Shown piece after piece: positions 861 to 62,681 of a stretch of DNA of 64,000 bases. Position 1 is the stretch's first letter, and every line of letters starts with the position of its first letter. The DNA lies in contig NZ_KV440945.1 of the NCBI RefSeq assembly GCF_001636345.1, positions 367,340-431,339 of the forward strand. Direction: 5' to 3'. Under the pieces are notes generated by a model. It did no database searches. It was not told the DNA's origin and saw only the letters and a list, made by a program, of their open reading frames with translations. Source of the stretch: Cytobacillus gottheilii. GTDB lineage: Bacteria > Bacillota > Bacilli > Bacillales > Cytobacillaceae. The translations under genes and the position numbers were made by a program.

Positions 861-2745
861 GTGTGCCCGGCATGGGTGCAGGCTCTAGGGTGCGAGTCCC
901 GAACGGCGAAGGCAGTAGTAGCCGTAGCTTAAGACAAGGATATGCGGGGTGACCCTCCTATCTGAAGGAAGTCGGCGGCAAACTTCCGCTCTGAGGAACA
1001 CGAATCTCATATGAGGCTAGATGACATTGGGTGAGTCTGCAATACAAGACAAAGTCCATACTGCCAAAGGTGTCACATAGTAAATGAGGCGGAGACATGG
1101 AAGGAAAGTCTGTACTCTTACCCGGGGAGAACCTGTCGATATGCCGTACTCATGCGGTAAGCCTATCCGTGAGGATAAGTTGAACGACAGGCGTCAGCAG
1201 AAGCCATAGTACTTATTCGCTTAAGAGGATAAGGAAGGGCTGAACCGGTTATGGAAAATAGGAACTAGGCGTATCTTTCCATTCGATGAAACAGAAAACA
1301 TAGTACCTGTTTAATGAAAGAAACGGTGAATCCGCGGGGGTCATTAAACAGGGTGGAGAATGAAAAGGACACAAACAGAACACCTATTTACGCGGGAGGT
1401 TATATCAATGTTAATGGAACGAATCATGTCACGGGAAAACCTACTTAATGCGATTAAAAGAGTAGAAAAGAATAAGGGAAAACATGGAGTGGACGAAATG
1501 CCCGTCACTGCTCTTCGTGGACATATTATGCTCAACTGGAGCGAACTGCGAAAATCCCTCTTCGAGGGAACCTATATCCCATCCCCCGTCCGTCGAGTCG
1601 AAATCCCGAAACCAGACGGCAAAGGGAAGAGGAAACTGGGAATCCCAACCGTGACAGACCGTTTCATTCAACAAGCAATCACCCAAGTGCTTACCAGAAT
1701 GTATGACCCTAGTTTCTCTGAATGTAGCTTCGGCTTTCGCCCTAACAGGCGAGCGCACCAGGCTGTTAAATTAGCCCAAAGCTATATAGAAGAGGGTTAT
1801 CGATGGGTAGTCGACATTGACCTTGAAAAGTTCTTTGACAAGGTTAACCACGATAGATTAATGAGTAAATTAGCCATGAGGATAAAGGATAGTACTCTCC
1901 TCAAACTAATAAGACGGTTCTTAACCTCTGGTGTTATGGAAGGCGGACTTGTCAGTCCTAACCTTGAGGGGACACCGCAAGGTGGACCTTTAAGCCCTTT
2001 ACTTTCGAATATTGTGTTGGATGAACTGGATAAAGAACTGGAGCGCAGAGGACATCGCTTTGTCCGCTACGCCGATGATTGTAATATCTATGTGAAATCT
2101 AAAAGAGCTGGAGAAAGAGTTATGAAGGCAATGACCCATTTTATCGAGAGGAATCTTAAACTGAAGGTTAACAAGGATAAAAGTGCTGTAGACCGCCCTT
2201 GGAAAAGGAAATTTCTTGGGTTCAGTTTTACAAGTAATCTAAAACCGAAGGTGAGAATATCTCCCCAATCAGTTAAACGGTTTAAAGATAAAATAAGAAA
2301 GCTTACAAGCAGACGAAGGTCAATTGCCATGGAAGATAGGATTCATAACCTTAACCAATATCTAGTGGGATGGGTTAATTATTATCATTTAGCAGATACC
2401 CGTTCAGTAATCGCAAAACTCGAAGGATGGCTTAATCGAAGGTTAAGAATGATTCGATGGAAGGAATGGAAACTTCCCCAAACGAAGGTCAAGAAACTTA
2501 TTAAACTAGGTGTTTCGAAAGGGAAAGCATATGAATGGGGAAATACAAGAAAGGCTTATTGGAGGATATCCAAAAGTCCAATTCTTCATAAAACATTAGG
2601 GAAAGCCTACTGGCTTTCCCTTGGGTTAAAAAGTATTTCTGCTAGATATGACTTACAGCGTTCGACTTAATCGGAACCGCCGTATACGGAACCGTACGTA
2701 CGGTGGTGTGAGAGGGATAAATGGAGGTTAATCGCCTCCCCCTAT
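861..2745 (+). mobile_element. Group II intron (IIC-like), full length with maturase
   Basis: The 5' end GTGTGCCCGGCATGGG at 861 is the typical start of bacterial group II introns (GUGYG). An approximately 540-base structured region (domains I-III) precedes the reverse transcriptase gene. Behind that gene, bases about 2672-2714 form domain V (CCGTATACGG ... CCGTACGTACGG, then GTGAGAGG) and 2721-2739 form the short domain VI hairpin GGAGG/CCTCC, with the 3' end placed at CCTAT, about 2745. It sits directly after a rho-independent terminator, the preferred target of group IIC introns. No sign of truncation is seen, so it may still splice and move. The 3' boundary is accurate only to a few bases. 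Confidence 0.88.
1408..2670 (+). CDS. ltrA: Group II intron reverse transcriptase/maturase
   Basis: A 420-residue intron-encoded protein that reverse-transcribes the intron RNA and helps it fold. The start at 1408 is preferred over an in-frame ATG at 1360 because GGGAGGT at 1394-1400 lies a proper distance ahead and because the resulting length matches IIC proteins such as that of the Geobacillus GsI-IIC intron. Visible motifs: GFRPNRRAH (fingers), VDIDLEKFFD with the first catalytic Asp near residue 136, GTPQGGPLSPLL, and the catalytic YADD box near 221-224, followed by the thumb/maturase part with GWVNYY. There is no HNH endonuclease domain, as usual for class C. All catalytic residues are present, so it looks functional. 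Confidence 0.95.
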   Translation: MLMERIMSRENLLNAIKRVEKNKGKHGVDEMPVTALRGHIMLNWSELRKSLFEGTYIPSPVRRVEIPKPDGKGKRKLGIPTVTDRFIQQAITQVLTRMYDPSFSECSFGFRPNRRAHQAVKLAQSYIEEGYRWVVDIDLEKFFDKVNHDRLMSKLAMRIKDSTLLKLIRRFLTSGVMEGGLVSPNLEGTPQGGPLSPLLSNIVLDELDKELERRGHRFVRYADDCNIYVKSKRAGERVMKAMTHFIERNLKLKVNKDKSAVDRPWKRKFLGFSFTSNLKPKVRISPQSVKRFKDKIRKLTSRRRSIAMEDRIHNLNQYLVGWVNYYHLADTRSVIAKLEGWLNRRLRMIRWKEWKLPQTKVKKLIKLGVSKGKAYEWGNTRKAYWRISKSPILHKTLGKAYWLSLGLKSISARYDLQRST

Positions 2746-2786
2746 CTCAATTTTTATTAAAAGAAAAAAATGGGGGTCAGAAAAAT

Positions 2787-3641
2787 ATGAGAAAAAAATT
2801 ATCGTTTTTAAGTGTATTGGCACTTGCGGCAGTATTGCTTTTAGCAGGGTGTGGAACTAGCTCAGATGAGGGTTCTGCGGGATCAGGATCAGAGTCTGAT
2901 ACGGAGAAGGATGTATTCCGTGTTGGTCTTGAAGCAGGTTATGCACCATTTAACTGGACACAAATGGATGATGCAAATGGCGGTGTGAAAATTGATGGAA
3001 ACGCTGAATTTGCAGGCGGCTATGATGTAGAAATTGCGAAAAAAATCGCTGAAGGCTTAGGGAAAGAGCTAGTGATCGTTAAAACGGAGTGGGATGGTCT
3101 TGTACCTGCCTTAACTTCTGATAAAATTGATGCAATTATCGCAGGGATGTCACCAACTGAAGAAAGAAAGCAAACAATCGATTTCTCAGACAACTATTAT
3201 AAATCCGACCTTGTTATGGTAGTGAAAAAAGGCGGAGACTATGAAAATGCCACTTCTATTCAAGATTTCAGCGGTGCAAAAGTAACGGCTCAATTGAATA
3301 CGTTCCATTACTCAGTTATTGAACAAATTGATGGCGTTGAACAGCAGCCGGCAATGGATAACTTCCCTGCTATGCGTGTTGCGCTAGAATCTGGCGTAAT
3401 TGACGGCTATGTTTCCGAGCGTCCTGAAGGTGTGAGTGCTTCTTCTGCAAATGAAAACTTTGCAATGGTTGAATTTACAGAAGGCTTTGAAACATCTGAG
3501 GACGATACAGCTATTGCTGTAGGTGTTGCAAAAGACAGCGAGCTAACTGAAAAGATCAATGAAATTTTAGCAGGAATCTCTGAAGAAGAGCGTGTAGAAA
3601 TTATGGATGAGGCGATTAAAAATCAGCCAGCAGCTAACTAA
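2787..3641 (+). CDS. Amino-acid ABC transporter substrate-binding lipoprotein, probably lysine
   Basis: Family 3 solute-binding protein of 284 residues that captures an amino acid outside the membrane and hands it to the permease. An in-frame start at 2721 lies inside intron domain VI, so the ATG at 2787, with GGGGG at 2772-2776 ahead, is chosen; it gives a lipoprotein signal with lipobox LLAGC (Cys22). Mature-domain hallmarks include FRVGLEAGYAPFNW and GGYDVEIAKKIAEGLG. The upstream lysine riboswitch is the main reason to propose lysine. It is the first gene of an importer whose other subunits start at 3722 and 4519. Confidence 0.9.
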   Translation: MRKKLSFLSVLALAAVLLLAGCGTSSDEGSAGSGSESDTEKDVFRVGLEAGYAPFNWTQMDDANGGVKIDGNAEFAGGYDVEIAKKIAEGLGKELVIVKTEWDGLVPALTSDKIDAIIAGMSPTEERKQTIDFSDNYYKSDLVMVVKKGGDYENATSIQDFSGAKVTAQLNTFHYSVIEQIDGVEQQPAMDNFPAMRVALESGVIDGYVSERPEGVSASSANENFAMVEFTEGFETSEDDTAIAVGVAKDSELTEKINEILAGISEEERVEIMDEAIKNQPAAN

Positions 3642-3653
3642 TAACGCTGCACG

Positions 3654-3692
3654 GCCGGCTGCATGACATGACATGTAGCCGGCTTCTTTTTT
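3654..3692 (+). terminator. Intra-operon terminator or attenuator
   Basis: GCCGGCTGCAT and ATGTAGCCGGC form a strong hairpin followed by a T-rich run just after the binding-protein gene and before the permease gene. Such a partial terminator would give more binding protein than membrane subunits, the usual stoichiometry of importers; this effect is inferred. Confidence 0.8.
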
Positions 3693-3721
3693 GACATATT
3701 CATTAAAAAAGGAGGATCACC

Positions 3722-4492
3722 ATGAGTCTCGATTGGATGATACAAATCATACAGTCAAACTGGCCGATGTTTTTGCGCGGAGCTGGTTGGACGTTAGTCA
3801 TCGCTTTAACAGGAACGATTATTGGATCGCTCATTGGTTTGCTGGCAGGAGTAGTTCGAACAATACCTGCTCCTGAAAAAGGAATAAAAAAGAATCTGCT
3901 TAAACTGATCAATGCCATTTTAACCATTTATATTGAATTTTTCCGCGGCACACCAATGATTGTACAGGCAATGGTCATTTTTTATGGCTCTGCACTTGCC
4001 TTTAATTTTCATATGAACCCGATTATTGCGGGTATTGTGGTAGTAGGAATTAATACAGGTGCATATATGGCTGAAATTGTACGCGGAGGCATTATTTCGG
4101 TCGATAAAGGCCAATATGAAGCGGCGCAGGCAATCGGCATGAATCATGTGCAGACCATGATTCATGTAGTTATGCCGCAAGTAATCCGCAATATTTTGCC
4201 GGCAACAGGGAACCAGTTCATTATTAATATTAAAGACACGGCTGTATTAAGTGTTATTTCTGTAACAGAATTATTTTTCCAGACGAAAACGGTGGCGGGC
4301 AATAATTTCCGCTATTTCGAATCATTCTTTGTCGCGTGTATCATTTACTTTATTATGACGTTTGCGATTACTCTCATCCTGCGCTACTTTGAACGCAAAC
4401 TCGAGGGACCGGATAACTACACTGTGATCGGCAATAACTTGCATGTTGAAACAGCAGAAGATATGAAAAAGAAAGCCAATAAAGGGATGTAA
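3722..4492 (+). CDS. Amino-acid ABC transporter permease
   Basis: A 256-residue His/Glu/Gln/Arg/opine-type permease. It shows an N-terminal membrane segment at about 21-45, the FFRGTP motif at 73-78 typical of polar amino-acid permeases, and the EAA loop (EAAQAIGMN, about 133-141) that docks on the ATPase. A second subunit is not encoded, so it likely works as a homodimer with the adjacent ATPase. AAGGAGG at about 3710-3716 precedes the ATG. Transport of lysine is inferred from the riboswitch ahead of the operon. Confidence 0.93.
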   Translation: MSLDWMIQIIQSNWPMFLRGAGWTLVIALTGTIIGSLIGLLAGVVRTIPAPEKGIKKNLLKLINAILTIYIEFFRGTPMIVQAMVIFYGSALAFNFHMNPIIAGIVVVGINTGAYMAEIVRGGIISVDKGQYEAAQAIGMNHVQTMIHVVMPQVIRNILPATGNQFIINIKDTAVLSVISVTELFFQTKTVAGNNFRYFESFFVACIIYFIMTFAITLILRYFERKLEGPDNYTVIGNNLHVETAEDMKKKANKGM

Positions 4493-4518
4493 TTTCTTGA
4501 CTGAGAGGAGGAACATAT

Positions 4519-5259
4519 ATGGAAACAATCATTGAAATCCAGCGCTTAAGCAAATCATTTGGTTCGCATGAGGTTTTAAAGGATATTCATTTTTCTGTGG
4601 AAAAAGGTGAAGTTGTTACAATTATCGGCTCTTCAGGCTCGGGAAAATCAACACTGTTGCGCTGTGTAAACTTACTTGAAAAACCAAGCGGCGGCCAGAT
4701 TATTTATAATGGAGAAAATATCTTGGATGACCGTCATGATATCCACCAATACCGCCGAAAGCTGGGGATGGTTTTTCAGCAATTTAACTTGTTCAATAAT
4801 CATGATGTATTAAATAACTGTATGGTCGGACAAATAAAGGTATTAAAGCGTTCAAAGGAAGAAGCGGAACAAATTGCACGCAAATACTTGCGTGTTGTAG
4901 GGATGGAAAATTACATTAATGCCAAGCCGCGCCACTTATCAGGCGGACAAAAGCAGCGTGTTGCTATCGCACGTGCCCTTTCAATGGAACCAGATGTAAT
5001 GCTTTTCGATGAACCGACATCTGCGTTAGATCCTGAAATGGTTGGCGAAGTATTAAAAATTATGAAAGAGCTCGCTGGAACAGGCTTAACCATGTTAATC
5101 GTTACACATGAAATGGAATTCGCAAGAGAAGTCTCTGACCGTGTTGTATTTATGGACAAAGGCGTCATCGCGGAAGAAGGACCTCCAGAAAAAATCTTTA
5201 ACAATCCTGACCAGGAGCGTACAAGAGAGTTCTTAAAACGGACATTGAAGACTGTATAA
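4519..5259 (+). CDS. Amino-acid ABC transporter ATP-binding protein
   Basis: A 246-residue ATPase of the GlnQ/HisP type that powers the importer of the two genes before it. Walker [10 protein letters not shown] is at 37-45, the Q-loop VFQQFNLF at about 85-92, signature LSGGQ at 140-144, and Walker B MLFDEP at 161-166 with the D-loop SALD. The start codon lies 26 bases after the permease stop with GAGAGGAGG ahead. The gene ends the operon, followed by a terminator at 5309-5351. Confidence 0.94.
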
Positions 5260-50449: not shown

Positions 50450-50779
50450 CTGTCTTTCCTCCCTGAATATATCATTTCATTCTTTTCAGTATATCAATTT
50501 CGATTAACGTAATAAAGTGTAAGTTCTCGGAAAAACGACAAACCATAATAAGCAAATATATAGCTTTGTTTTAGATCATATATATCTTCAAGTTATAACA
50601 TTTACATATTTCGTAAAAAATTGTCGATTTAAAGAAGAAATTATGAATTTTTTGTGACCTATGGCGATAATCTTCATTTTCTCCTTTCGAAAGTGATAAA
50701 AGTTACATTTGCTTCTGGAGATGATGTGTAGGATAGAACTATATACAACTTGTGTGTGCTTTTAAAAGGGGGAAAAGCC
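50450..50779. other. Divergent promoter region of pdxK and fdhD
   Basis: A 330-base AT-rich region. A TTTGTGACCTATGGCGATAA segment near 50650 has one FNR/CRP-like half (TGTGA) but no proper second half. I see no clear operator, riboswitch or gene. Confidence 0.4.
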
Positions 50780-51547
50780 ATGAATTACAAAGGCAGTCCT
50801 GAAGAATTCCCTATTACATTGCTTATTAATGGGTTTGAGATTGCGGTGTTTCAGCTGACGAACGAGGACTTAGAGGATTGGGCTTATGGATATTTGTATT
50901 CTGAAGGCTTAATTGAAAAGGCAGAAGACATTCGCACCTTTCGATTTGTGGAGGATTCCAACACAATTTATGTAGAGCTGGATAATGACTTTCAGCCTGA
51001 ATGGATGTTCACAAAGAAAAAGCATTACACCGCTGGCTGTGGAAGAGGGGTCACATTCTTCTCAATGACAGATGTGAAAGCGTTTCCCAAGATTAACAGT
51101 ATGAGAACGTTCACAATGAGTTTTCTTTTGAAAAAAAGAAGTGAGTTTGCAAAGAATTCCCCATTGTATCTAAAGACAGGCGGTATGCACGGGGCATGCA
51201 TTGTTCATGTGTCGGGAGAAATTACAGTGCGAGAAGATATTGGCAGGCATAATGCTGTTGATAAAGTGATTGGTTTTGCGTTGCGCAATAGATTAGAGCC
51301 TTCAAATTTGCTGCTCCTGACAACAGGAAGAGTATCTTATGAAATGCTTTCTAAAGCAGCAAAATTCGGGTTTCCTGTGATCGGGTCAAGAACGGCAGCA
51401 ACAAAGCAGGCAGTTCAGCTTGCCAAATTTCTAAACATAGAAGTAATTGGTTATTTGCGAGGGAAAATGGCCATTCCATACACTTCTGCTGGCAGAGTTA
51501 TCAATGATCTAGAAAATCGGCCGTTTGAAAGTGTTAGAGAAAAATAG
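50780..51547 (+). CDS. fdhD: Formate dehydrogenase sulfurtransferase
   Basis: A 255-residue accessory protein that passes sulfur to the molybdenum cofactor before insertion into formate dehydrogenase. Typical parts are EFPITLLINGFEIAVFQLT at the start (shortened), the catalytic Cys loop TAGCGRGVTF near residue 86-95 (single Cys), TGGMHGACIV, REDIGRHNAVDKVIG and the late SRTAATKQAVQLA. The ATG at 50780 with AAAAGGGGG is preferred over a start at 50750. It heads the formate dehydrogenase island. Confidence 0.94.
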   Translation: MNYKGSPEEFPITLLINGFEIAVFQLTNEDLEDWAYGYLYSEGLIEKAEDIRTFRFVEDSNTIYVELDNDFQPEWMFTKKKHYTAGCGRGVTFFSMTDVKAFPKINSMRTFTMSFLLKKRSEFAKNSPLYLKTGGMHGACIVHVSGEITVREDIGRHNAVDKVIGFALRNRLEPSNLLLLTTGRVSYEMLSKAAKFGFPVIGSRTAATKQAVQLAKFLNIEVIGYLRGKMAIPYTSAGRVINDLENRPFESVREK

Positions 51548-51723: not shown

Positions 51724-54711
51724 GTGGAACTAAATGTAACACGAAGGAAGTTTCTGAAGATATCAGGTGCTGTAGCTGCTACTTTAGCAGTGGTGGAGCT
51801 TGGTTTTGATGATAAAACAGCCAGAGCAAAAGCAAAGGAATTAAAAATTTCAGAGTTAAAACCAACACCAACCATCTGCCCTTATTGCTCTGTGGGCTGT
51901 GGGATTTTAGTGTATTCAAACGGAAAAGATGTTGTATACACAGAAGGTGATCCGGATCATCCGATCAATGAAGGATCGCTCTGCAGTAAAGGTACAACCG
52001 TAAGGCAAGTATACACAACAGAAAAGCGTATCACAAACCCATTATACCGAGCACCAGGAAGCGGAAAATGGGAAGAAGTCGATTGGGATTTTGCTCTCGA
52101 TAAAGTAGCGAAAAATATTAAAGATACCCGCGATCGCACATTTGTCCAAAAGGAAAATGGCTATACGGTCAACAAGACAGAGGCGATTGCTTATATGGGT
52201 GGAGCGGCACTCGATAATGAAGAAACGTATTTGCTTTCTAAGCTTTTCCGTGCAGGACTGGGCTTAACGTATATCGAGCATCAGGCCCGAATATGACATA
52301 GTTCTACGGTTGCCGGTCTGGCACCTACGTATGGAAGAGGAGCAATGACAAATCATTGGAATGATTTGCAATATGCGGATGCCCTAATGGTCATAGGAGC
52401 AAATCCTGCTGAAAATCATCCAATCAGCTTTAGATGGATCTCAAAAGCAAAGCAAAAGGGAGCAAAGCTCATTTCAGTGGATCCAAGATATACAAGAACG
52501 TCGCAGATGGCTAATATCTACGGTCAGCTTCGTTCAGGAACAGATATTGCTTTTATTGGCGGCATGATTCATTATGCGCTTGAAAATGACATGTATCATA
52601 AAGAATATGTAGCAGCCTACACAAATGCGTCATTTATCGTAGATGAACAATACTCCTTTGAAGATGGCATTTTTAACGACTACGATGAAACAACAAGGAA
52701 TTATGATAAAACAAAATGGGCCTTTAAAAAGGATGAAAATGGCGAGATTGTTAAGGATCCAGCCTTAAAGGATCCCCGCTGCGTTTTTCAGCTAATGAAA
52801 AAACATTATGCACGCTATGATGTTGACACAGTAACAGGTGTTACAGGCACAGATAAAGATACGTATCTCGAAATCTGCCAAACATTCACAGGTACTAGTG
52901 AAACAGGCAAAGCAGGTACTATCCTATATGCTATGGGCGGTACACAGCATACGGTAGGTACCCAAAATATTCGCGCATATGCGATCTTACAGCTTTTACT
53001 CGGAAATATTGGCATTGCCGGCGGTGGTGTCAATGCCCTGCGCGGAGAGTCAAATGTACAAGGATCAACCGATTTCGGACTTCTTTATCATAATGTCAAT
53101 GGTTATATGGAAGTACCTACAGGATCGGATCAAGACTCAAAGTATAAAGGATTTCTGGAGCGGATTACACCTGAATCCGGGTATTTCTCTAACAAGCCGA
53201 AGTTTTACACAAGCATGTTGAAAGCTTACTACGGCAATTCTGCAACTAAGCAAAATGAATTTGGCTATCATCTGATGCCAAAACTGACGCCAGGCAAGGA
53301 TTATTCACATATGCGCTTATTTGATGCGATGTACCGCGGAGAGCTTGAAGGGCTAATTATGTTTGGAACAAATCCTGTTGTAGGGGGTCCAAATGCAGGG
53401 AAAGAAAAAGAGGCATTGAGCAACCTAAAGTGGATGGTTGCAGTTGACCTATTTGAAACAGAGACATCAGCTTTTTGGCAAAAGGAAGCTGGTGCAGACC
53501 CGGCTGCGATCCAAACAGAGGTGATTTTCCTGCCTGCCTGCGGATCTTTTGAAAAAGAAGGCTCTGTTACAAACTCAGGACGCTGGATGCAATACCGCTG
53601 GCAAGCGATTAAACCAAAGGGTGAATCAAGAGCTGACCTGGAAATCGTTCATATGCTTGCTAGAAAGCTGAAAGGATTATATGAAAATAGTCCAAAGCAG
53701 CAGGATATGCCGATGAAGGCTTTAACATGGGATTATGGAGAATCGGATCACCCTGATATCGATATGGTCTGCCGTGAAATTAACGGCTATGATATGAAAA
53801 CAAAACAGCAGATTAAAGGTTTTGGAGATTTGAAGGATGATGGTTCTACATGCAGCGGCAACTGGATATATAGCGGATTTTACCCAGAATCTGAGAACCT
53901 ATCAAAACGAAGAGATAATACAAATGAAGGTATGAGTAACTTCTTAAACTGGTCTTTTGCATGGCCGGCAAATAGGAGAATTCTTTATAACCGTGCAAGT
54001 GCTGATTTGAATGGAAAGGCATGGAGCAAGGATCGTATCGGAATACAGTGGAATGCAGCAGAGAAAAAATGGAGCGGTTTTGATGTTCCAGACTTTGTTG
54101 CCGCGAAAGGTCCGGATGATCCTACATTTAATGACCCATTCATTATGATGGCGGGCGGAAAAGGAGCTTTGTTTTCTGGCGGCGTTAATGAAGGGCCATT
54201 CCCAGAGCATTACGAGCCTTATGAAAACCCCATTTCAAATGCATTTTCCAGTATTCAGCTGAATCCGGCTGTGAAGTTTGGCGAGAAGGAAATGAATGCA
54301 CAAGGAGATGTGTCAGAATATCCGATTGTTGCGACAACCTATCGCGTGTCAGAGCACTGGCAGTCTGGTGCGATGACACGGAATATCCCTTGGCTGGCTG
54401 AGCTGATGCCGCATATGTACATTGAAATAAGTGAAGAGCTGGCACAGGAAAAGGGAATATCAAGCAAGGATCGGGTGATCGTAAAAACGGCCCGTGGGGA
54501 AATAGAGGCTTTTGCCATGATTACCAAACGCTTTAAACCGTACAAATTAAAGGATAAAACCATTCACCAAATTGGCATGCCATGGCATTTTGGCTATAAG
54601 GGGATCGCAACAGGTGCAACAGCTAACCGCTTGACCCCTCATATTGGAGATGCAAATACGACAATTCCTGAGTATAAAGCGTTCCTATGTGATGTTAGGA
54701 GGGCGAAATAA
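51724..54711 (+). CDS. fdhA: Formate dehydrogenase catalytic subunit, selenocysteine-containing
   Basis: A 995-residue molybdopterin enzyme oxidising formate to CO2. GTG start at 51724 after GGGGGGAG. Tat signal TRRKFLK (6-12) directs export of the folded protein. A [4Fe-4S] site is formed by CPYCSVGC (52, 55, 59) and C87. The TGA at 52294-52296 is read as selenocysteine, residue 191: the flanks HQARI-U-HSSTVAGLAPTYGRGAMTNHW (quoted in part) align with the selenocysteine site of E. coli FdnG. The frame continues open to 54711 with normal domains, so this is one gene, not two. It forms a complex with FdhB and FdhC. Confidence 0.95.
52297..52334 (+). promoter_or_regulatory. SECIS element of fdhA
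   Basis: Eleven bases after the TGA a hairpin starts: GGT, a bulged T, GCC, loop GGTCT, then GGCACC. This is the SelB-binding form known from E. coli fdhF/fdnG (GGUUGC-AGGUCU-GCACC), at the identical 11-nt distance. A lower TAC/GTA part may extend it. It lies inside the coding sequence. Confidence 0.92.
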
Positions 54712-55523
54712 TGGCAGATTATATTAAATTTGTGGATGTAACGAAATGTGATGGCTGCCGGGCATGTATGGTTGCCTGTAAAAATTGGAACGACCTGCCG
54801 GCAGAGCCGGAGGACTTTAATGGAAGTATACAGTCACACAGAGATTTAACGGCAAATACATGGAATGTCATTACGTTTAATGAACATGAAACATCAGATG
54901 GAAACTTTGAATGGCTTTTCCGTCATATGTCCTGTCTGCACTGTAATCAGGCTGCCTGTGAAAAGGCTTGTCCAGAGAGTGCGATCAGCTATACAAAATT
55001 CAATTCCGTCGTCATTGATGCGGAAAAATGTGTAGGCTGCGGCTATTGTGTTCAGAACTGTTCCTTTGGTGTTGTGCAGCTTGCCACCTATAAAGATAAA
55101 AATGGCAGTGAATATCGAAAGGCACAAAAATGTACTCTTTGCACAGACCGGCTTGAGCAAGGCCTGCAGCCGGCCTGTGTGGTTGCCTGCCATACAGACT
55201 GCTTAATCTATGAAGAAAAGGATCTTGTCTTAGCTGAGGCAAACAAGCGCCTAGGGGAAGTAAAGGAACGTTTTCCGAATGCAAATATTTATAACCCGCA
55301 AGGAATTGAAGGCACCAATACCATTTATCTCCTCGCTGACAAACCATCTGTTTATGGATTGCCTGAGAATCCAAAAGTGGCTTTATCCCAAGTGGTTTGG
55401 AAGGACTATGCTCAGCCGCTTGGCAAAATGATGCTTGGAGCTACAACCATGGCTGTTATTGGTGCTGCTATATCAAATGCTGTCAGAAAAGACCGACCGG
55501 AAGGGGATCATGACCATGAATAA
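54711..55523 (+). CDS. fdhB: Formate dehydrogenase iron-sulfur subunit
   Basis: A 270-residue electron-transfer subunit with four [4Fe-4S] motifs: CDGCRACMVAC (start, about 14-24), CLHCNQAACEKAC, CVGCGYCVQNC and CTLCTDRLEQG with a last CVVACHTDC. A hydrophobic C-terminal segment (MLGATTMAVIGAAIS) anchors it, as in FdnH. Its ATG overlaps the fdhA stop (TAATG), so it is translationally coupled. It passes electrons from FdhA to the cytochrome subunit. Confidence 0.95.
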   Translation: MADYIKFVDVTKCDGCRACMVACKNWNDLPAEPEDFNGSIQSHRDLTANTWNVITFNEHETSDGNFEWLFRHMSCLHCNQAACEKACPESAISYTKFNSVVIDAEKCVGCGYCVQNCSFGVVQLATYKDKNGSEYRKAQKCTLCTDRLEQGLQPACVVACHTDCLIYEEKDLVLAEANKRLGEVKERFPNANIYNPQGIEGTNTIYLLADKPSVYGLPENPKVALSQVVWKDYAQPLGKMMLGATTMAVIGAAISNAVRKDRPEGDHDHE

Positions 55524-56202
55524 AAAAGAACCAAAGATGGTTAAGCGATTCTCAAAGCATGTCATATTTGCACACTGGTTAAATGCTTTGGCATTCTTTG
55601 TTCTGTACTTGACCGGTCTGCCGCTTTATACAGAATTTTTTGACTGGCTTTATGTTGTATTTGGAAGCCCGGCAGGTGCACGTCTTGTTCATAGAGTGGC
55701 AGCTGTGTTTTTCATCCTGCCTGTTGTCTATATTTTGTTTGCGGATCCAAAGAGCTTTATTCACTGGATGAAGCAGATTTTTTCCTGGAAAAAACATGAC
55801 TTCCAATTCTTTTTACATTTTCCAAAAGAGTTTTTCGGCGGTCACGCGAAGATTCCAAAGCAGGATTTTTACAATGCAGGTGAAAAGTTAAATTCTCTGC
55901 TGACGATCCTGACAGCTGTTATGCTCATTGGTTCCGGTCTTGTTATGTGGTTTCCGCAGTACTTTCCGCAAGGGCTTGTGATGTGGGCCTATCCGCTCCA
56001 TAATATCGGACTTGGGTTATCCACGGCCGTTGTAGTCGGTCATATTTATTTATCGGTTGGCCATCCCGGCTCCCGTGCTTCTTTTAGAGGAATGACAAAA
56101 GGAGATATTCCAGAAGAGTATGCCCGTAACCATCACGGCCGCTGGTATGACAAGCTTAAGGAACAGGAAAAAGAACAGGAACAAGAGCAGAAGCGGGCTT
56201 AA
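55516..56202 (+). CDS. fdhC: Formate dehydrogenase cytochrome b subunit
   Basis: A 228-residue membrane subunit with four helices of the FdnI type. Heme-ligand histidines fit FAHWLNALAFF (helix 1), ARLVHRVAAVF (helix 2) and LHNIGLGLSTAVVVGHIYLS (helix 4, shortened). It delivers electrons to menaquinone. Start ATG at 55516 overlaps the fdhB end by eight bases, AAGGGG ahead; the ATG at 55510 is an alternative. The C terminus is a charged EQEKEQEQE tail. Confidence 0.92.
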   Translation: MNKKEPKMVKRFSKHVIFAHWLNALAFFVLYLTGLPLYTEFFDWLYVVFGSPAGARLVHRVAAVFFILPVVYILFADPKSFIHWMKQIFSWKKHDFQFFLHFPKEFFGGHAKIPKQDFYNAGEKLNSLLTILTAVMLIGSGLVMWFPQYFPQGLVMWAYPLHNIGLGLSTAVVVGHIYLSVGHPGSRASFRGMTKGDIPEEYARNHHGRWYDKLKEQEKEQEQEQKRA

Positions 56203-56265: not shown

Positions 56266-56294
56266 AAAAAAGCACATTGGAAGAAGGGATCCTT

Positions 56295-57098
56295 ATGTCG
56301 AACACGAATGTAGTAGAAGAAAGCTATGAGAAGCTGCAGGCGGAAATAGAAGAATTAATAAAAGGGTGGCGCAAGTCTATAAATGAAACAGCTGTAGTGA
56401 AAGAATCTTCGTTTGAACTTATCTCCTCACCACTTATTCCACAGCTTGACCTTGAAGCGGATATGAATCAATATCATCTTTTTATAATTGAACTGTTTGA
56501 TTTTTTAGCTGAAAGGCAGCCGGAAAATCATGAGTATTGTGATATCTTAAAAGAGAATTTAACCATTGACATAGTGAGTAAGTGGTTTAAAGAAGTGATT
56601 ACTGTAAATCGATACTACTTTCATGCAGTTGCAGAACAATATCAGGTTCCGGAATGGCTCCCGCTGTTTGCAGCAGAACAGGCTGCCCGCCCTTTCTTAC
56701 AAAAGGCTGCAGCAGAGCTGGAGACCGTCCTGACTAAATTTCAGCATGACCCATGCTGCCCGGCATGCGGTGAGCCTGCGCGTTTTGCTGTTGTAGGGAA
56801 AAAGGGGAAAAAGGAGCTCACATGCCCGCGCTGTCTGCATAGCAGGGAAGAAAAAAAGCTGTGCTGTGCACATTGCGGCACAGAAGATCATACCCAAATG
56901 ATTGTTATGAAGGTGGATGGTGAAGAAGGAGCGGAAATTCACGGCTGTCAAACATGCAAAGGGTATACAAAGGTGATTGATATGAGAAAGCTGCTGAAGA
57001 AGGAAACACCTGCGCTCATGGATATAAAAACAATTCACCTGGACTATATTGCGCAAGAAAACGGTTTTGGCACGGCTGAGGATGGCAAATACCATTAA
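56295..57098 (+). CDS. fdhE: Formate dehydrogenase accessory protein FdhE
   Basis: A 267-residue cytoplasmic protein required for maturation of membrane formate dehydrogenases. The C-terminal half has rubredoxin-like zinc/iron sites: CCPACGEPA, CPRCLHSREEKKLCCAHCG (split) and CQTCKGYTKV, four CxxC motifs in all. The ATG at 56295 with AAGGGAT is preferred over a TTG at 56277. A terminator-like hairpin precedes it, so it may have its own promoter. Confidence 0.9.
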   Translation: MSNTNVVEESYEKLQAEIEELIKGWRKSINETAVVKESSFELISSPLIPQLDLEADMNQYHLFIIELFDFLAERQPENHEYCDILKENLTIDIVSKWFKEVITVNRYYFHAVAEQYQVPEWLPLFAAEQAARPFLQKAAAELETVLTKFQHDPCCPACGEPARFAVVGKKGKKELTCPRCLHSREEKKLCCAHCGTEDHTQMIVMKVDGEEGAEIHGCQTCKGYTKVIDMRKLLKKETPALMDIKTIHLDYIAQENGFGTAEDGKYH

Positions 57099-57107
57099 GA
57101 TTGGCTG

Positions 57108-57716
57108 GTGATAGAAGTGGAGACAACAGGCATTATTTTAGCAGGCGGGAAATCAAGCCGGATGGGTACCAACAAGGCACTGCTGCAAATAGACGGAAAA
57201 ACGGTCATTGAACGGATTGCAGAAGAGCTTGCAACCATTGTCGACCATGTCATTGTCGTAACGAATACGCCTGATGATTATGCATTTCTGCAATTGCCGA
57301 TGATTGCAGACCGTTATATAGGAAAAGGGCCGCTTGCTGGAATTGAAGCAGGGCTGTCTTTATCAGCAACGGAAAAAAATTTAATTGTTGCCTGCGATAT
57401 GCCCTTTATATCTGCATCGCTCGGAAGTTATTTACTAAGCAAGCTGGATGATTACCAAGCTGCCGTTCCAGAGCGGGACGGCCAAAAACACCCTCTATTT
57501 GCTGCCTATAGAAGGGAAGCAAGAAATTGTGCGGAAATGTTCTTAAAGGAAGAAAAGCTGGCTATTCGCAATATGCTAAACTATATTCAGACAGTGTATA
57601 TAAGAGTTGAATCTTTAAAAATACCTATCAATGAGTCAACCCTTTTTAATATGAATCACCCGGAAGAGTATAAAAAAGCAGCACAGATCTCTTCGGAAGG
57701 CAAAGAGCAGCTATGA
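57108..57716 (+). CDS. mobA: Molybdenum cofactor guanylyltransferase
   Basis: A 202-residue nucleotidyltransferase that attaches GMP to molybdopterin to give the MGD cofactor used by formate dehydrogenase. LAGGKSSRMGTNKALL near the start holds the GTP and catalytic motif; VACDMPFIS binds the metal. It begins at GTG (57108; 57117 possible) close behind fdhE and overlaps moeA by four bases. Confidence 0.93.
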   Translation: MIEVETTGIILAGGKSSRMGTNKALLQIDGKTVIERIAEELATIVDHVIVVTNTPDDYAFLQLPMIADRYIGKGPLAGIEAGLSLSATEKNLIVACDMPFISASLGSYLLSKLDDYQAAVPERDGQKHPLFAAYRREARNCAEMFLKEEKLAIRNMLNYIQTVYIRVESLKIPINESTLFNMNHPEEYKKAAQISSEGKEQL

Positions 57717-58942
57717 AATTTTTTAATGTAAAAACAGTAGAGGAAACATTCCAGCTAATAAAAGAATATTATTCTCCCATTCAGGAATGGAAGATGGTGC
57801 CGCTTGAAGAGGCTGTACAGCACATCCTTGCAAAGGATATACATGCAGCAGAAAATGTGCCTGGCTTCCGCCGGTCGGCTGTTGATGGCTATGCTGTCCT
57901 AGCGGCGGATACATTCGGGGCCTCTGAAAACCTTCCTGCTTATTTAAATGTCACAGGTGAAGTGAAAATGGGGGAGCAGCCCTCAAAGCCTCTTTTTAGC
58001 GGGGAGGCCATGTATGTCCCTACTGGCGGAATGATTCCAGAGCATAGTAATGCGGTAGTTATGATTGAGCATTGTGAAGATTTAGATGGTCTTCTAAATT
58101 TATATAAACATGTCATGCCTGGAGAAAATGTGATTGAAGCAGATGAAGATCTTCGGCAGGGAAGCCTCTTGCTGAAAAAAGGAACCTTGCTTCGGGCCCA
58201 GGAACTCGGTGCACTTGCCTCACAAGGAATAGCAGAAGTCCCAGTTGTACGCAAACCCATTATTGCTTACTTATCAACGGGAAATGAAGTGAAAGCACTC
58301 GAAACGAAAGAGCTATTGCCCGGCCAGGTTCGTGATATGAACGGTATGACAATTGGAGCCCTTGTAAAGGAATGGGGATATGAATTTAAATACGGCGGTA
58401 TTGTAAATGATGATTTTGATGATTTAAAAAGAAAAATGCAGCAAATGCTTGCTGAAGCAGACTGTTTGTTTATCTCAGGGGGAAGTTCTGTTGGTATTAT
58501 GGACTATTCATCTGATGTAATGAACTCACTGGGAAAACCAGGTGTGTTTGTACATGGCATTTCGATTAAACCTGGAAAACCAACAATTATGGCAAGTGCA
58601 GAAGGAAAACCTGTGATTGCACTTCCCGGCCATCCAGCTTCAGCTATGGTTATTTTCCATGTTTTCGCCAAAAAAATCTTGAATCAACTGCAAGGATATG
58701 AAGGCTTAGACTCTCCGTTTACATTTGCAAAAACCACTAGAAATATCCCTTCTGCTGCGGGACGAACAGATTATGTGAGAACTCGTCTCTTTCAGGAGGG
58801 GGAACAATGGCTTGCTGAACCTATTTTCGGAAAATCGGGACTTATTTCAACCCTGGTCAATAGTGATGGGCTGATTGAAATTCCGGCCCGCAGTGAAGGG
58901 GTGCAAAAAGGAGAACTTGTCACTGTTAAATTATTTCTTTAA
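57713..58942 (+). CDS. moeA: Molybdopterin molybdenumtransferase MoeA
   Basis: A 409-residue protein that inserts molybdate into adenylated molybdopterin. Typical landmarks: RRSAVDGYAVLAADT, PTGGMIPEHSNAVVMIE (shortened here), GNEVKALE, the MoCF-fold SGGSSVGIMDY, and PGKPTIMA with LPGHPASAM. ATG overlaps the mobA stop. It is the first of two MoeA-like genes in the island. Confidence 0.95.
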   Translation: MKFFNVKTVEETFQLIKEYYSPIQEWKMVPLEEAVQHILAKDIHAAENVPGFRRSAVDGYAVLAADTFGASENLPAYLNVTGEVKMGEQPSKPLFSGEAMYVPTGGMIPEHSNAVVMIEHCEDLDGLLNLYKHVMPGENVIEADEDLRQGSLLLKKGTLLRAQELGALASQGIAEVPVVRKPIIAYLSTGNEVKALETKELLPGQVRDMNGMTIGALVKEWGYEFKYGGIVNDDFDDLKRKMQQMLAEADCLFISGGSSVGIMDYSSDVMNSLGKPGVFVHGISIKPGKPTIMASAEGKPVIALPGHPASAMVIFHVFAKKILNQLQGYEGLDSPFTFAKTTRNIPSAAGRTDYVRTRLFQEGEQWLAEPIFGKSGLISTLVNSDGLIEIPARSEGVQKGELVTVKLFL

Positions 58943-59018: not shown

Positions 59019-60932
59019 ATGTCACCATACAAACGAAAAATATATTTAGAGAATAAACCCCGCCAAGAGGCACGGCATGAAATGCTCGCAAACTTTCAGC
59101 CGAAGAGGAAAGTGGAGTGGATACCAAGTGTGTCTGCTCTTGGGCGAATTACAGCAGAACCTATTTTTGCACAGAGCTCGATGCCTCATTTTCATGCTTC
59201 AGCGATGGATGGCATAGCGATTGTGGCAGAAGAGACCTTTTCTGCTCATGAACAAAACCCGCTGCTGCTAAGGAGAAATGAAGATTTTATTCATGTGGAT
59301 ACTGGAAATGAAGTGCCTCCTCCATTTAATGCGGTAATCATGATTGAAAACGTAGAAGAGCGGGATGAAGATAGCGTGGAAATCATTGAACCAGCAGCTC
59401 CTTGGCAGCATATCCGTCCGATTGGGGAGGATATTGTACAAGAGGAAATGCTATTCCCGCAAGGCCATGAAATCAGACCAGTTGATATTGGGGCATTAGT
59501 TGCCGCTCGAACTCTAACCATTCCAGTCATTAAAAAACCAGCTGTAACGGTCATTCCCACTGGCAATGAGCTAGTTTCCGCAGAAGATGCTGCTTCAGTT
59601 GGACAGCTTATTGAGTTTAATGGAAGTGCCTTTGTCAATTATATAAGAGAGTGGGGAGGAGATCCGCTTCTCACACCAGTCGTTAAGGATGATCCGGAGA
59701 AAATAAAAGCCGCATTGCTGGAAGCAGCAAATACCTCAGATATTGTAGTTATCAATGCTGGATCATCGGCAGGATCAAAGGATTACACTGTTCATATTTT
59801 ACAGGAGATAGGCACCGTGTATACGCATGGAATTGCAACAAGACCTGGTAAACCTGTCATTATCGGCAAGGTGAATAGCACAATCGTTGTTGGCATTCCA
59901 GGATACCCTGTGTCAGCCTATTTAAGCTTAGAATGGTTTGTGCGTCTGCTTATTTGTGAGTACTTAGGTGTAAATGAGCCCGAACGGCAAAAGCTGAAAG
60001 TGAAAATTGGCCGGCGAATGGTCGGGTCAATGGGTGCTGAAGATTTTATTCGAGTGAGTATAGGGTATATTAATGGGGAGTATGTGGCAAACCCCTTATC
60101 AAGAGCTGCTGGAGTGACCATGTCGCTTGTACGTGCAGACGGCCTGCTTGTCATTCCTCCTGATATTTTAGGGTATGAGCAAGGAGAATACGCGGAAGCA
60201 GAACTTTATAAACCAAAGCATGAAATTGAAAATGCCATTGTGTTCAGCGGCAGTCACGATCTGACAATCGACCTTTTATCATCAAAACTAAAAGCAGAAA
60301 ATCGATCATTCAGTATACAGGCTTCACATACAGGCAGCATGGCCGGTATGATGGCCATTAAAAAAGGGGAAGCACATTTAGCTGCAGTGCATCTGCTTGA
60401 CCCTGAAACAAAAGAATATAACACTTCCTATATAAAAAGATTCTTGCAGGGAACGGAAGTTGTTTTATATCCTTTCTTAAGAAGAAAACAAGGCTGGCTA
60501 TTGCCACAAGGCAACCCACTTAACATACAATCGCTGCTTGATATCGTTGAAAAACAGGCACAGTATGCCAATCGGCAAAAAGGTGCAGGCACAAGAGTTC
60601 TTTTTGATATGTTGATGAGAGAAGAAGGGGTTAGTCTTCAGCAGATCACTGGATATGAACGTGAAATGTTTTCACACTTAAGTGTTGCTGCAGAGGTGAA
60701 AGGAAACCCTGATGGAGTTGGTCTTGGCATTTACTCTGCTGCTAAGGTGATGAAACTCGATTTTATCCCAGTGGCAGATGAACATTACGATCTGCTTATG
60801 ACAAAAAGCTTTTTCGAAAGTGAACAGGGACAGACACTTATTAAAGTCATTCAATCTCATGACTTTAAGCAGGCTGTTGAACAAATTGGCGGCTATTCTC
60901 TCGTGCAAGAACTTGAACCTTTATTCTTTTAA
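59019..60932 (+). CDS. MoeA-like protein fused to a periplasmic-binding-like domain
   Basis: A 637-residue fusion. Residues 1-400 repeat the MoeA layout (SSMPHFHASAMDGIAI, TGNEVPPPFNAVIMIE, GSSAGSKDYTV, TRPGKPVIIG, IPGYPVSAY). Residues about 410-637 form a PBP-like substrate-binding domain (HDLTIDLLSS, AHLAAVHLLDPE, GAGTRVLFDML), cytoplasmic because no signal peptide exists. Proteins of this type are known in archaea and some firmicutes; a role in molybdate or tungstate handling is presumed. It has GGAGTG ahead of the ATG. Confidence 0.88.
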   Translation: MSPYKRKIYLENKPRQEARHEMLANFQPKRKVEWIPSVSALGRITAEPIFAQSSMPHFHASAMDGIAIVAEETFSAHEQNPLLLRRNEDFIHVDTGNEVPPPFNAVIMIENVEERDEDSVEIIEPAAPWQHIRPIGEDIVQEEMLFPQGHEIRPVDIGALVAARTLTIPVIKKPAVTVIPTGNELVSAEDAASVGQLIEFNGSAFVNYIREWGGDPLLTPVVKDDPEKIKAALLEAANTSDIVVINAGSSAGSKDYTVHILQEIGTVYTHGIATRPGKPVIIGKVNSTIVVGIPGYPVSAYLSLEWFVRLLICEYLGVNEPERQKLKVKIGRRMVGSMGAEDFIRVSIGYINGEYVANPLSRAAGVTMSLVRADGLLVIPPDILGYEQGEYAEAELYKPKHEIENAIVFSGSHDLTIDLLSSKLKAENRSFSIQASHTGSMAGMMAIKKGEAHLAAVHLLDPETKEYNTSYIKRFLQGTEVVLYPFLRRKQGWLLPQGNPLNIQSLLDIVEKQAQYANRQKGAGTRVLFDMLMREEGVSLQQITGYEREMFSHLSVAAEVKGNPDGVGLGIYSAAKVMKLDFIPVADEHYDLLMTKSFFESEQGQTLIKVIQSHDFKQAVEQIGGYSLVQELEPLFF

Positions 60933-60964: not shown

Positions 60965-61429
60965 ATGAACTTTGAAATTTCAAAAGAACCAATTAACACA
61001 CAAGCTGTGATCGATAAAGTTGTTCAGCGTGAGGCTGGTGCCATCACAACCTTTATTGGCACCGTCAGAGAGCTGACGCATGGGAAGAAAACATTATTTT
61101 TAGTTTATGAAGCGTATGAACCAATGGCTGTGAAGAAACTCGAGCAGATTGGGAATGAAATAAAAGACAAATGGGCTGGTGCTGAAGTTGCCATTACTCA
61201 TCGTGTCGGAAAACTTGATATTACGGATATCGCTGTTGTCATTGCTGTTTCCACTCCTCACCGCAACGATGCTTATGAAGCGAATCGCTATGCCATTGAG
61301 CGCATAAAGGAGATCGTTCCTATTTGGAAGAAAGAACATTGGGAGGATGGAGAAGAGTGGATTGGCAATCAGCTTGAGACGGTAGCCTATCCTTCAGGTA
61401 AACCAGAGGAGAGTGATCTAAATGAATAA
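60965..61429 (+). CDS. moaE: Molybdopterin synthase large subunit
   Basis: A 154-residue catalytic subunit that uses thiocarboxylated MoaD to convert cPMP into molybdopterin. GAITTFIGTVRELTHGK near 27-43, YEAYEPMAVKKLEQIG, VGKLDITDIAVVIAVSTPHR and WKKEHWEDGEEWIG with the catalytic Lys pair are typical. GAGGTGACC precedes the ATG. It overlaps moaD by eight bases. Confidence 0.96.
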   Translation: MNFEISKEPINTQAVIDKVVQREAGAITTFIGTVRELTHGKKTLFLVYEAYEPMAVKKLEQIGNEIKDKWAGAEVAITHRVGKLDITDIAVVIAVSTPHRNDAYEANRYAIERIKEIVPIWKKEHWEDGEEWIGNQLETVAYPSGKPEESDLNE

Positions 61430-61661: not shown

Positions 61662-62681
61662 ATGAGTGATCGCTATTCACGACAAACACTATTTGCACCA
61701 ATTGGGTTTGAAGGCCAGAGGATGATCAGCCAAAAGCACGTTTTGCTAATTGGTGCTGGAGCGCTTGGATCTGGGAATGCCGAAGTGCTTGCAAGAGCAG
61801 GTGTTGGCAAACTCACCATCATTGACCGTGATTATGTCGAAGAAAGCAATCTCCAGCGGCAGCAGCTTTATACGGAACAGGATGTCATTGAAAAGCTTCC
61901 AAAAGCAGCAGCAGCCAAAAAGAGATTACTAGAAATCAACCATGAACTAAACATAAAGGCTGTTATTGGCGATGCAACACCTGAAGTGATTGAGGATTTG
62001 TGCAGGGAAGTGGATTTAATCCTTGATTGCACCGATAACTTTGAAACACGGATGCTCATAAATGATGCTTCTCAAAAGCATGGGGTTCCTTGGATTTATG
62101 GAGCATGTGTCAGCAGTTATGGCATGAGCCTTACGATCATTCCTGGAAAAACACCTTGCTTAAATTGTCTACTAAAGAAGATTCCGCTTCAGGGAATGAC
62201 TTGTGATACCGGTGGAATCATTGGTCCGGCTGTACAAATGGTCATTGCCCATCAATCTGCTGAAGCTCTGAAAATTTTAGTGGAAGATTGGGAGCATATA
62301 AGGCAAACTTTTGTCAGCTTCGACCTTTGGAACAATCAGTACACAAATATTAAAATTTCAAAAGCAAAGGATGAGGGCTGCCTCTCTTGTGGCACCACCC
62401 GAACATACCCGTATCTTCAAAGTGAAAATCGAACCAAAACCGCTGTTCTATGCGGCAGAGATACAGTCCAAATTAGACCGCCGCACGACACGGTCATTAG
62501 CCTTGCAACTCTTTCGAAGCAACTAAAATCATTAGGTTATGAGATTAAAGGAAATCCCTATCTGCTCTCTATTGAAATGGCGGAGCAGCGTATGGTTCTT
62601 TTTCAGGATGGCAGAGCACTGATCCATGGCACAAAGGATATTACTCATGCTAAATCGGTATATCAGCGTATCCTTGGATAA
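61662..62681 (+). CDS. moeB: Molybdopterin-synthase adenylyltransferase (MoeB/ThiF family)
   Basis: A 339-residue E1-like enzyme that adenylates the MoaD C terminus. ATP site LLIGAGALGSGNAEVLARAG (quoted as LLIGAGALGSG), arginine finger SNLQRQQLY, DCTDNFETR, and zinc cysteines CLNCLL and CLSCGTT. The C-terminal 90 residues have no rhodanese cysteine motif. GGAGGG precedes the ATG. It closes the moa-moe genes; a terminator follows. Confidence 0.94.
   Translation: MSDRYSRQTLFAPIGFEGQRMISQKHVLLIGAGALGSGNAEVLARAGVGKLTIIDRDYVEESNLQRQQLYTEQDVIEKLPKAAAAKKRLLEINHELNIKAVIGDATPEVIEDLCREVDLILDCTDNFETRMLINDASQKHGVPWIYGACVSSYGMSLTIIPGKTPCLNCLLKKIPLQGMTCDTGGIIGPAVQMVIAHQSAEALKILVEDWEHIRQTFVSFDLWNNQYTNIKISKAKDEGCLSCGTTRTYPYLQSENRTKTAVLCGRDTVQIRPPHDTVISLATLSKQLKSLGYEIKGNPYLLSIEMAEQRMVLFQDGRALIHGTKDITHAKSVYQRILG

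Follow-up and report, generated by a model that had tools for sequence, protein, structure and literature searches.

Formate dehydrogenase locus of Cytobacillus gottheilii

The window, the whole 64,000-nucleotide stretch analysed here (C1:367340–431339; genome 4.59 Mb, 3 contigs), carries a formate dehydrogenase (FDH) gene, fdhA, with fdhD upstream and fdhB, fdhC, an FdhE-like gene and molybdenum cofactor (Moco) genes downstream. The features are as follows.

50750..51547, +, fdhD, formate dehydrogenase accessory sulfurtransferase (PF02634, 217.9 bits; TIGR00129, 172.1 bits over a cut-off of 140.9)
51724..54711, +, fdhA, FdnG-type formate dehydrogenase alpha subunit (open frame, TIGR01553, FdnG alignment)
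52294..52296, +, in-frame TGA, putative Sec191 codon (aligned to FdnG Sec196; conserved among orthologues)
52308..52325, +, SECIS upper stem-loop GGU-U-GCC-GGUCU-GGC-ACC (likeness to E. coli elements, frozen codons, pairing)
54711..55523, +, fdhB, 4Fe-4S electron-transfer subunit (Fer4 domains; TIGR01582, 213 bits, below 334.7)
55510..56202, +, fdhC, membrane cytochrome b subunit (PF01292, 71.7 bits; TIGR01583, 98 bits, below 115.85)
56277..57098, +, FdhE-like accessory protein (FdhE_C, 25 bits, cut-off 27; TIGR01562, 29.9 bits, far below 187.65; cluster position)
57108..57716, +, mobA-like, Mo-cofactor nucleotidylation (PF12804, 133.7 bits)
57713..58942, +, moeA-like, molybdopterin molybdotransferase (three MoeA domains over cut-off; below NCBIfam equivalog cut-offs)
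59019..60932, +, MoeA fused to a periplasmic-binding-protein-like domain (NF011068, 694.9 bits over 534; PF12727, 215.6 bits)
60965..61429, +, moaE, molybdopterin synthase large subunit (PF02391, 129.4 bits)
61662..62681, +, MoeB/ThiF family adenylyltransferase (NF009123, 535 bits over 510)

By profile score FdhB, FdhC and FdhE are distant members of their families, below the NCBIfam cut-offs, and were therefore named from domains and position; the start of fdhC was picked by eye inside ORF 55435–56202. Genes for an Fe–S beta and a cytochrome b gamma subunit, recognised by their Pfam domains, adjoin fdhA, the arrangement looked for in an FDH-N. The MoeA/binding-protein-like fusion at 59019–60932 adjoins the second moeA-like gene. 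At the other end of the window, a lysine riboswitch (608–791) is followed by a hairpin that resembles a terminator and includes a run of T (approximately 829–857, by eye). Directly after that comes a group II intron (943–2751 by Rfam hits; reverse-transcriptase-like ORF 1360–2670), which lies between the riboswitch and an apparent amino-acid ABC transporter operon (by eye; ORFs 2721–5259). Class C introns are known to insert after terminators.

Turning to fdhA itself, the ORF tool placed its start at TTG 51703; we prefer GTG 51724, which stands behind the ribosome-binding-like run GGGGGGAG. Translated with the TGA as selenocysteine (Sec), the frame yields 995 residues and no further stop. Against NCBIfam TIGR01553 (formate dehydrogenase-N alpha, cut-off 814.2) the product reached 1270.9 bits, and it is 43.6% identical to E. 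coli FdnG across 99% of its length. In that alignment residue 191 sits opposite Sec196 of FdnG, with closely similar flanks (QARI-U-HSSTVAGLAP here, QARV-U-HGPTVASLAP in E. coli). A twin-arginine motif, RRKFLK, can be read directly at the N-terminus, and the Pfam TAT_signal profile scored 21.8 bits, slightly below its cut-off of 22.7. These results bear out the preliminary description of the locus, which held that the TGA splits fdhA (it is the sole interruption of the frame), that its flanks fit an FdnG-type Sec site, and that FdhABC, FdhD, FdhE and Moco genes are gathered nearby.

The resemblance to E. coli FDH-N extends to the aligned Sec, the twin-arginine start and the three-subunit gene set; unlike in E. 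coli, the beta and gamma subunits fall below the equivalog cut-offs. The best PDB matches to FdhA, nearly full length at 1016–1024 bits, are 8cm4 and 6sdr, annotated as "selenocysteine-containing" FDH alpha subunits, ahead of FdnG itself (1kqf_A, E 2.1e-278). We take both to be from Desulfovibrio vulgaris, and so from another phylum than this genome; in contrast to those enzymes, a cytochrome b subunit gene is also present at the fdhA locus. PDB 8rqz ("Probable oxidoreductase YjgC") belongs to the same superfamily and matched residues 39–297 at 209 bits. This Cys-type FDH differs from FdhA and aligns with only part of it.

Conservation of the TGA and the downstream hairpin

The sequence GGTTGCCGGTCTGGCACC lies at 52308–52325, 11 nt past the fdhA TGA, and is of the SECIS type found in E. 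coli fdhF and fdnG. It shares GGTTGC-N-GGTCT identically with the fdhF element, including the spacing from bulged U to loop, and differs from it in a 3' arm that is one base longer (GGCACC versus GCACC); E. coli FdhF belongs to a different FDH subfamily from the FdhA studied here. The fdnG element (K-12 record) stands in the same register after its UGA but reads GGTAGCAAGTCTTGCTCC rather than the sequence given above, with pairs changed on both sides. A TGA followed after 11 nt by GGTTGCCGGTCTGG occurred once in the window and in 0/100 shuffles. When two mismatches are tolerated, the looser motif GGTTGCNGGTCTG is not rare: it occurred twice against 2.45 expected, and its exact match was found only at fdhA. 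The folding energy of the segment was not better than that of shuffles (z 0.26 and 0.50), so what supports the hairpin is its conservation and its resemblance to the E. coli elements rather than thermodynamics; Rfam at gathering scores gave 4 hits over the window, none at fdhA.

Orthologues of fdhA were collected in two overlapping sets, together 72 loci and 52 distinct sequences, and all 72 orthologous loci keep both the TGA and the hairpin. The second set, which includes the window's own locus, has the TGA in 30/30 loci, and the first in 42/43. The 43rd of that set (L060, Dehalococcoidia) is a 28% partial match with GCC at the aligned place and was left out when codons and hairpins were counted. 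Among the sources are Cytobacillus, Robertmurraya, Niallia, Neobacillus, Schinkia and Ammoniphilus; the TGA is also present in two Syntrophomonadaceae bins, whose FdhA is 55–56% identical.

The synonymous sites of the fdhA hairpin are frozen. In 216 codon columns, at least 95% of the 52 distinct sequences have the same residue, one with four- or six-fold degeneracy, and the fraction taken by the commonest codon is 0.51 at the median; at residues 195–200, inside the hairpin, the mean fraction is 0.984, a value reached in 0/100,000 random draws. Among 16 distinct rows, the six pairs of the hairpin are standard in 96/96 cells, and a single pair varies, on one side (U-A to U-G).

This pattern bears directly on the possibility that fdhA is a pseudogene with a nonsense mutation at codon 191. 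The TGA does interrupt the frame, as such a mutation would; against this stand its presence in every orthologous locus, down to 55% protein identity, the conservation of the protein on both sides of it, and the freezing of the hairpin codons, and we regard decay of the gene as barely conceivable.

Compensatory change was confined to sister elements. No such change was found inside the fdhA hairpin among the 16 distinct rows, because it is nearly invariant. In relatives, 19 loci of a second, FdhF-type FDH that has a TGA (17 distinct rows) keep GCCGGTCTGGC in the same register, and in 4/17 distinct rows U-A is swapped for C-G at one pair. In selD, whose own in-frame TGA is described below, the stem GCGCAA-GUU-UUGCGU lies 27 nt past the TGA and covaries: its outer pair appears as G-C, G-U, A-U and U-A among 23 distinct rows, and a second type of selD has G-C in place of A-U next to the loop.

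Cysteine-codon relatives provide a further comparison. Two genomes, G184 (TGT) and G006 (TGC), possess a second FdnG-type gene with a Cys codon beside the TGA copy, at 68% identity, and in both paralogues (L170 and L171) the hairpin is broken; in the cases seen, therefore, the hairpin goes with the TGA. These are the only near-full-length FdhA matches without an internal TGA among those listed for the family, and a distant FdhA copy in G028 (45% identity) has the TGA. In 28/28 large Cys-type FDHs fetched from relatives, which we take to be of the YjgC kind, the Sec position is occupied by a Cys codon.

Selenocysteine machinery

The components for selenocysteine decoding are encoded outside the window.

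C1:2455571–2456662, −, selA (TIGR00474, 564 bits over 267.9)
C1:2461189–2462238 (L002:15190–16242), selD (TIGR00476, 412.3 bits over 125; own in-frame TGA)
2531958–2533817, −, selB (374 bits over 242.25)
2675847–2675939, −, tRNA-Sec, selC (Rfam, 58.3 bits over 47; ARAGORN tRNA-SeC, anticodon tca)

selD lies approximately 4.5 kb from selA; fdhA, selA/selD, selB and selC occupy four separate places in the genome. The search for tRNA-Sec covered this genome and 14 control genomes; the Rfam cut-off was also passed in 5/14 controls and is not fully specific, and ARAGORN independently agrees on the tRNA-Sec reported here. The SelB cut-off was passed in 2/14 controls.

fdhA thus combines a TGA aligned to the Sec of homologues, a 3' SECIS hairpin, and selA, selB, selC and selD in the same genome. 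The E. coli-type SECIS 11 nt after the TGA, as first described, is upheld by its likeness to the fdhF and fdnG elements and by its conservation, and the four sel genes proposed for searching were all found. Since selB and tRNA-Sec are present, the genome is not one that lacks both, the first situation named as contrary to the Sec reading; nor do the 72 orthologous loci show the second, a Cys or other sense codon without a conserved hairpin. The suggested covariation of the hairpin in close relatives did not appear within fdhA.

Some leakiness of UGA is general in bacteria, and on that ground the codon could be read by a near-cognate tRNA (e.g., Trp or Cys) without selenium, leaving the hairpin as a relic. 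The complete sel set and the two Cys-codon paralogues that lack the hairpin count against this, and we judge such read-through highly improbable. Rather, fdhA very probably specifies the catalytic subunit of an FdnG-type FDH that is bound to the membrane and exported by the Tat pathway, with selenocysteine as its active-site residue 191, an assignment made from sequence comparison.

We propose that SelD would supply selenophosphate, with which SelA would convert Ser-tRNA(Sec) to Sec-tRNA(Sec). SelB-GTP would carry the Sec-tRNA(Sec) and bind the 52308–52325 hairpin, such that the UGA at 52294–52296 would be read as Sec and the enzyme would contain selenium. FdhD and the Moco genes may build the metal site of FdhA, and the exported protein would form a complex with its partner subunits in which electrons pass from formate through FdhA and FdhB to FdhC, the cytochrome b subunit, and on to the quinone pool, its presumed physiological role.

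Distribution and probable inheritance of the selenocysteine trait

The family was sampled with 193 genomes, scoring at most 4 FdhA candidates per genome at E ≤ 1e-50, counting SelB over its cut-off and SelD at E ≤ 1e-40. FdhA was found in 121, SelA in 182 (some of them weak matches), SelB in 170 and SelD in 181. SelB accompanies FdhA in 119/121 genomes, the exceptions being G006 (88% complete) and G078 (66% complete), and is present in 51/72 genomes without FdhA (Fisher p 1.6e-8 for the association, kinship not corrected). An even draw across the order gave SelB in 179/397 genomes and 66/135 genera. A SelB tree built from 40 genomes and E. coli places the 13 family rows in a single clade (support 99/96), and 5/6 other families sampled twice pair together (exception f20).

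The preliminary description regarded the trait as rare, stating that B. subtilis and most relatives lack it. The statement on B. subtilis agrees with the available part of an earlier report, in which this species lacks SelB and tRNA-Sec (PMC1780047); the rarity among relatives is overstated in view of the family and order counts for SelB. Of its two options, a trait kept or acquired by the lineage, the first fits better: the prevalence of SelB in the family and its single clade suggest that the trait was probably kept by inheritance within the family, with repeated loss.

A recent horizontal acquisition of the Sec trait, or of fdhA alone, would account for the patchiness of fdhA, which had a match in 6/35 other genomes of the genus searched, and for the finding that Robertmurraya FdhA (81%) is about as close as that of most other Cytobacillus (81–82%). 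The SelB count and the grouping of SelB by family, in the other families as well as this one, argue for inheritance. Moreover, transferred Sec traits, in the portion of the Genome Biology 2006 study that was available, take the form of selABC–fdhA clusters (PMC1794560), whereas here the genes are dispersed. On the evidence of SelB and of the gene arrangement we consider acquisition by transfer unlikely and retain vertical inheritance as the probable history.

The accessible text of that 2006 study lists three selenoproteins, from three families, for Firmicutes/Bacillales (PMC1794560), so that Sec in Bacillales was already published by then, and a 2016 survey in ISME J, on the part available, maps >5200 genomes (PMC5029168). 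Among the titles and abstract openings of the 8 to 20 top-ranked papers per search, which took in few subscription papers, no published description of a Sec FDH in Cytobacillus was found; terms for Sec in Bacillales were absent from the accessible portions of PMC5330540 and PMC12013277, and that of PMC1273633 had no yield. The Sec fdhA of this genome looks like the usual inherited state of the family, and no surprise.

selD as an apparent selenoprotein gene

The selD gene of this genome has a TGA at codon 18 in the context KAG-U-GCKIGP. Among the 51 family genomes with SelB and no FdnG-type FdhA, 16 encode an FDH of the FdhF type interrupted by a single clean TGA, which in 16/16 falls at the Sec position. 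The other 35 showed no intact Sec FDH of the FdhF type at E ≤ 1e-100. In these 35 genomes, where neither type of Sec FDH was found intact (e.g., G035, G053 and G025), SelA and SelB are present and selD has an in-frame TGA in 35/35, at codon 18 in all 30 loci fetched from them. selD was the only selenoprotein gene detected there in searches that also covered FdnG-type and FdhF-type FDHs. PF07355 (GRDB) had no match in G000 or in the 35 genomes, but none in any of the 14 controls either, and so carries no information on them. In G049 and G162 selD is split in two, and the FdhF-type FDH of G162 has three stops (TGA, TAG and TAA); these two genomes look like cases of a Sec trait in decay, or of assembly error.

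Possibly, the Sec machinery of the 35 genomes is maintained with SelD, one of its own parts, as the sole selenoprotein detected, either in a loop that serves only itself or together with a selenoprotein family yet to be described; we put this forward tentatively, as the less probable side of the question. SelD as the only selenoprotein is given for Helicobacter mustelae in the available text of PMC4607533.

Implications

If the tentative reading of the 35 genomes is true, they would form a multi-genus set for studying Sec decoding without Sec formate dehydrogenase. G184 and G006, with TGA and Cys fdhA side by side, constitute a natural control, and gene callers that halt at TGA would split genes of this kind. 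For the family as a whole, these findings correct the picture, drawn from B. subtilis, of bacilli doing without selenocysteine: SelB is the rule, and its Sec clients are fdhA, FdhF-type FDH and selD, in varying combinations.
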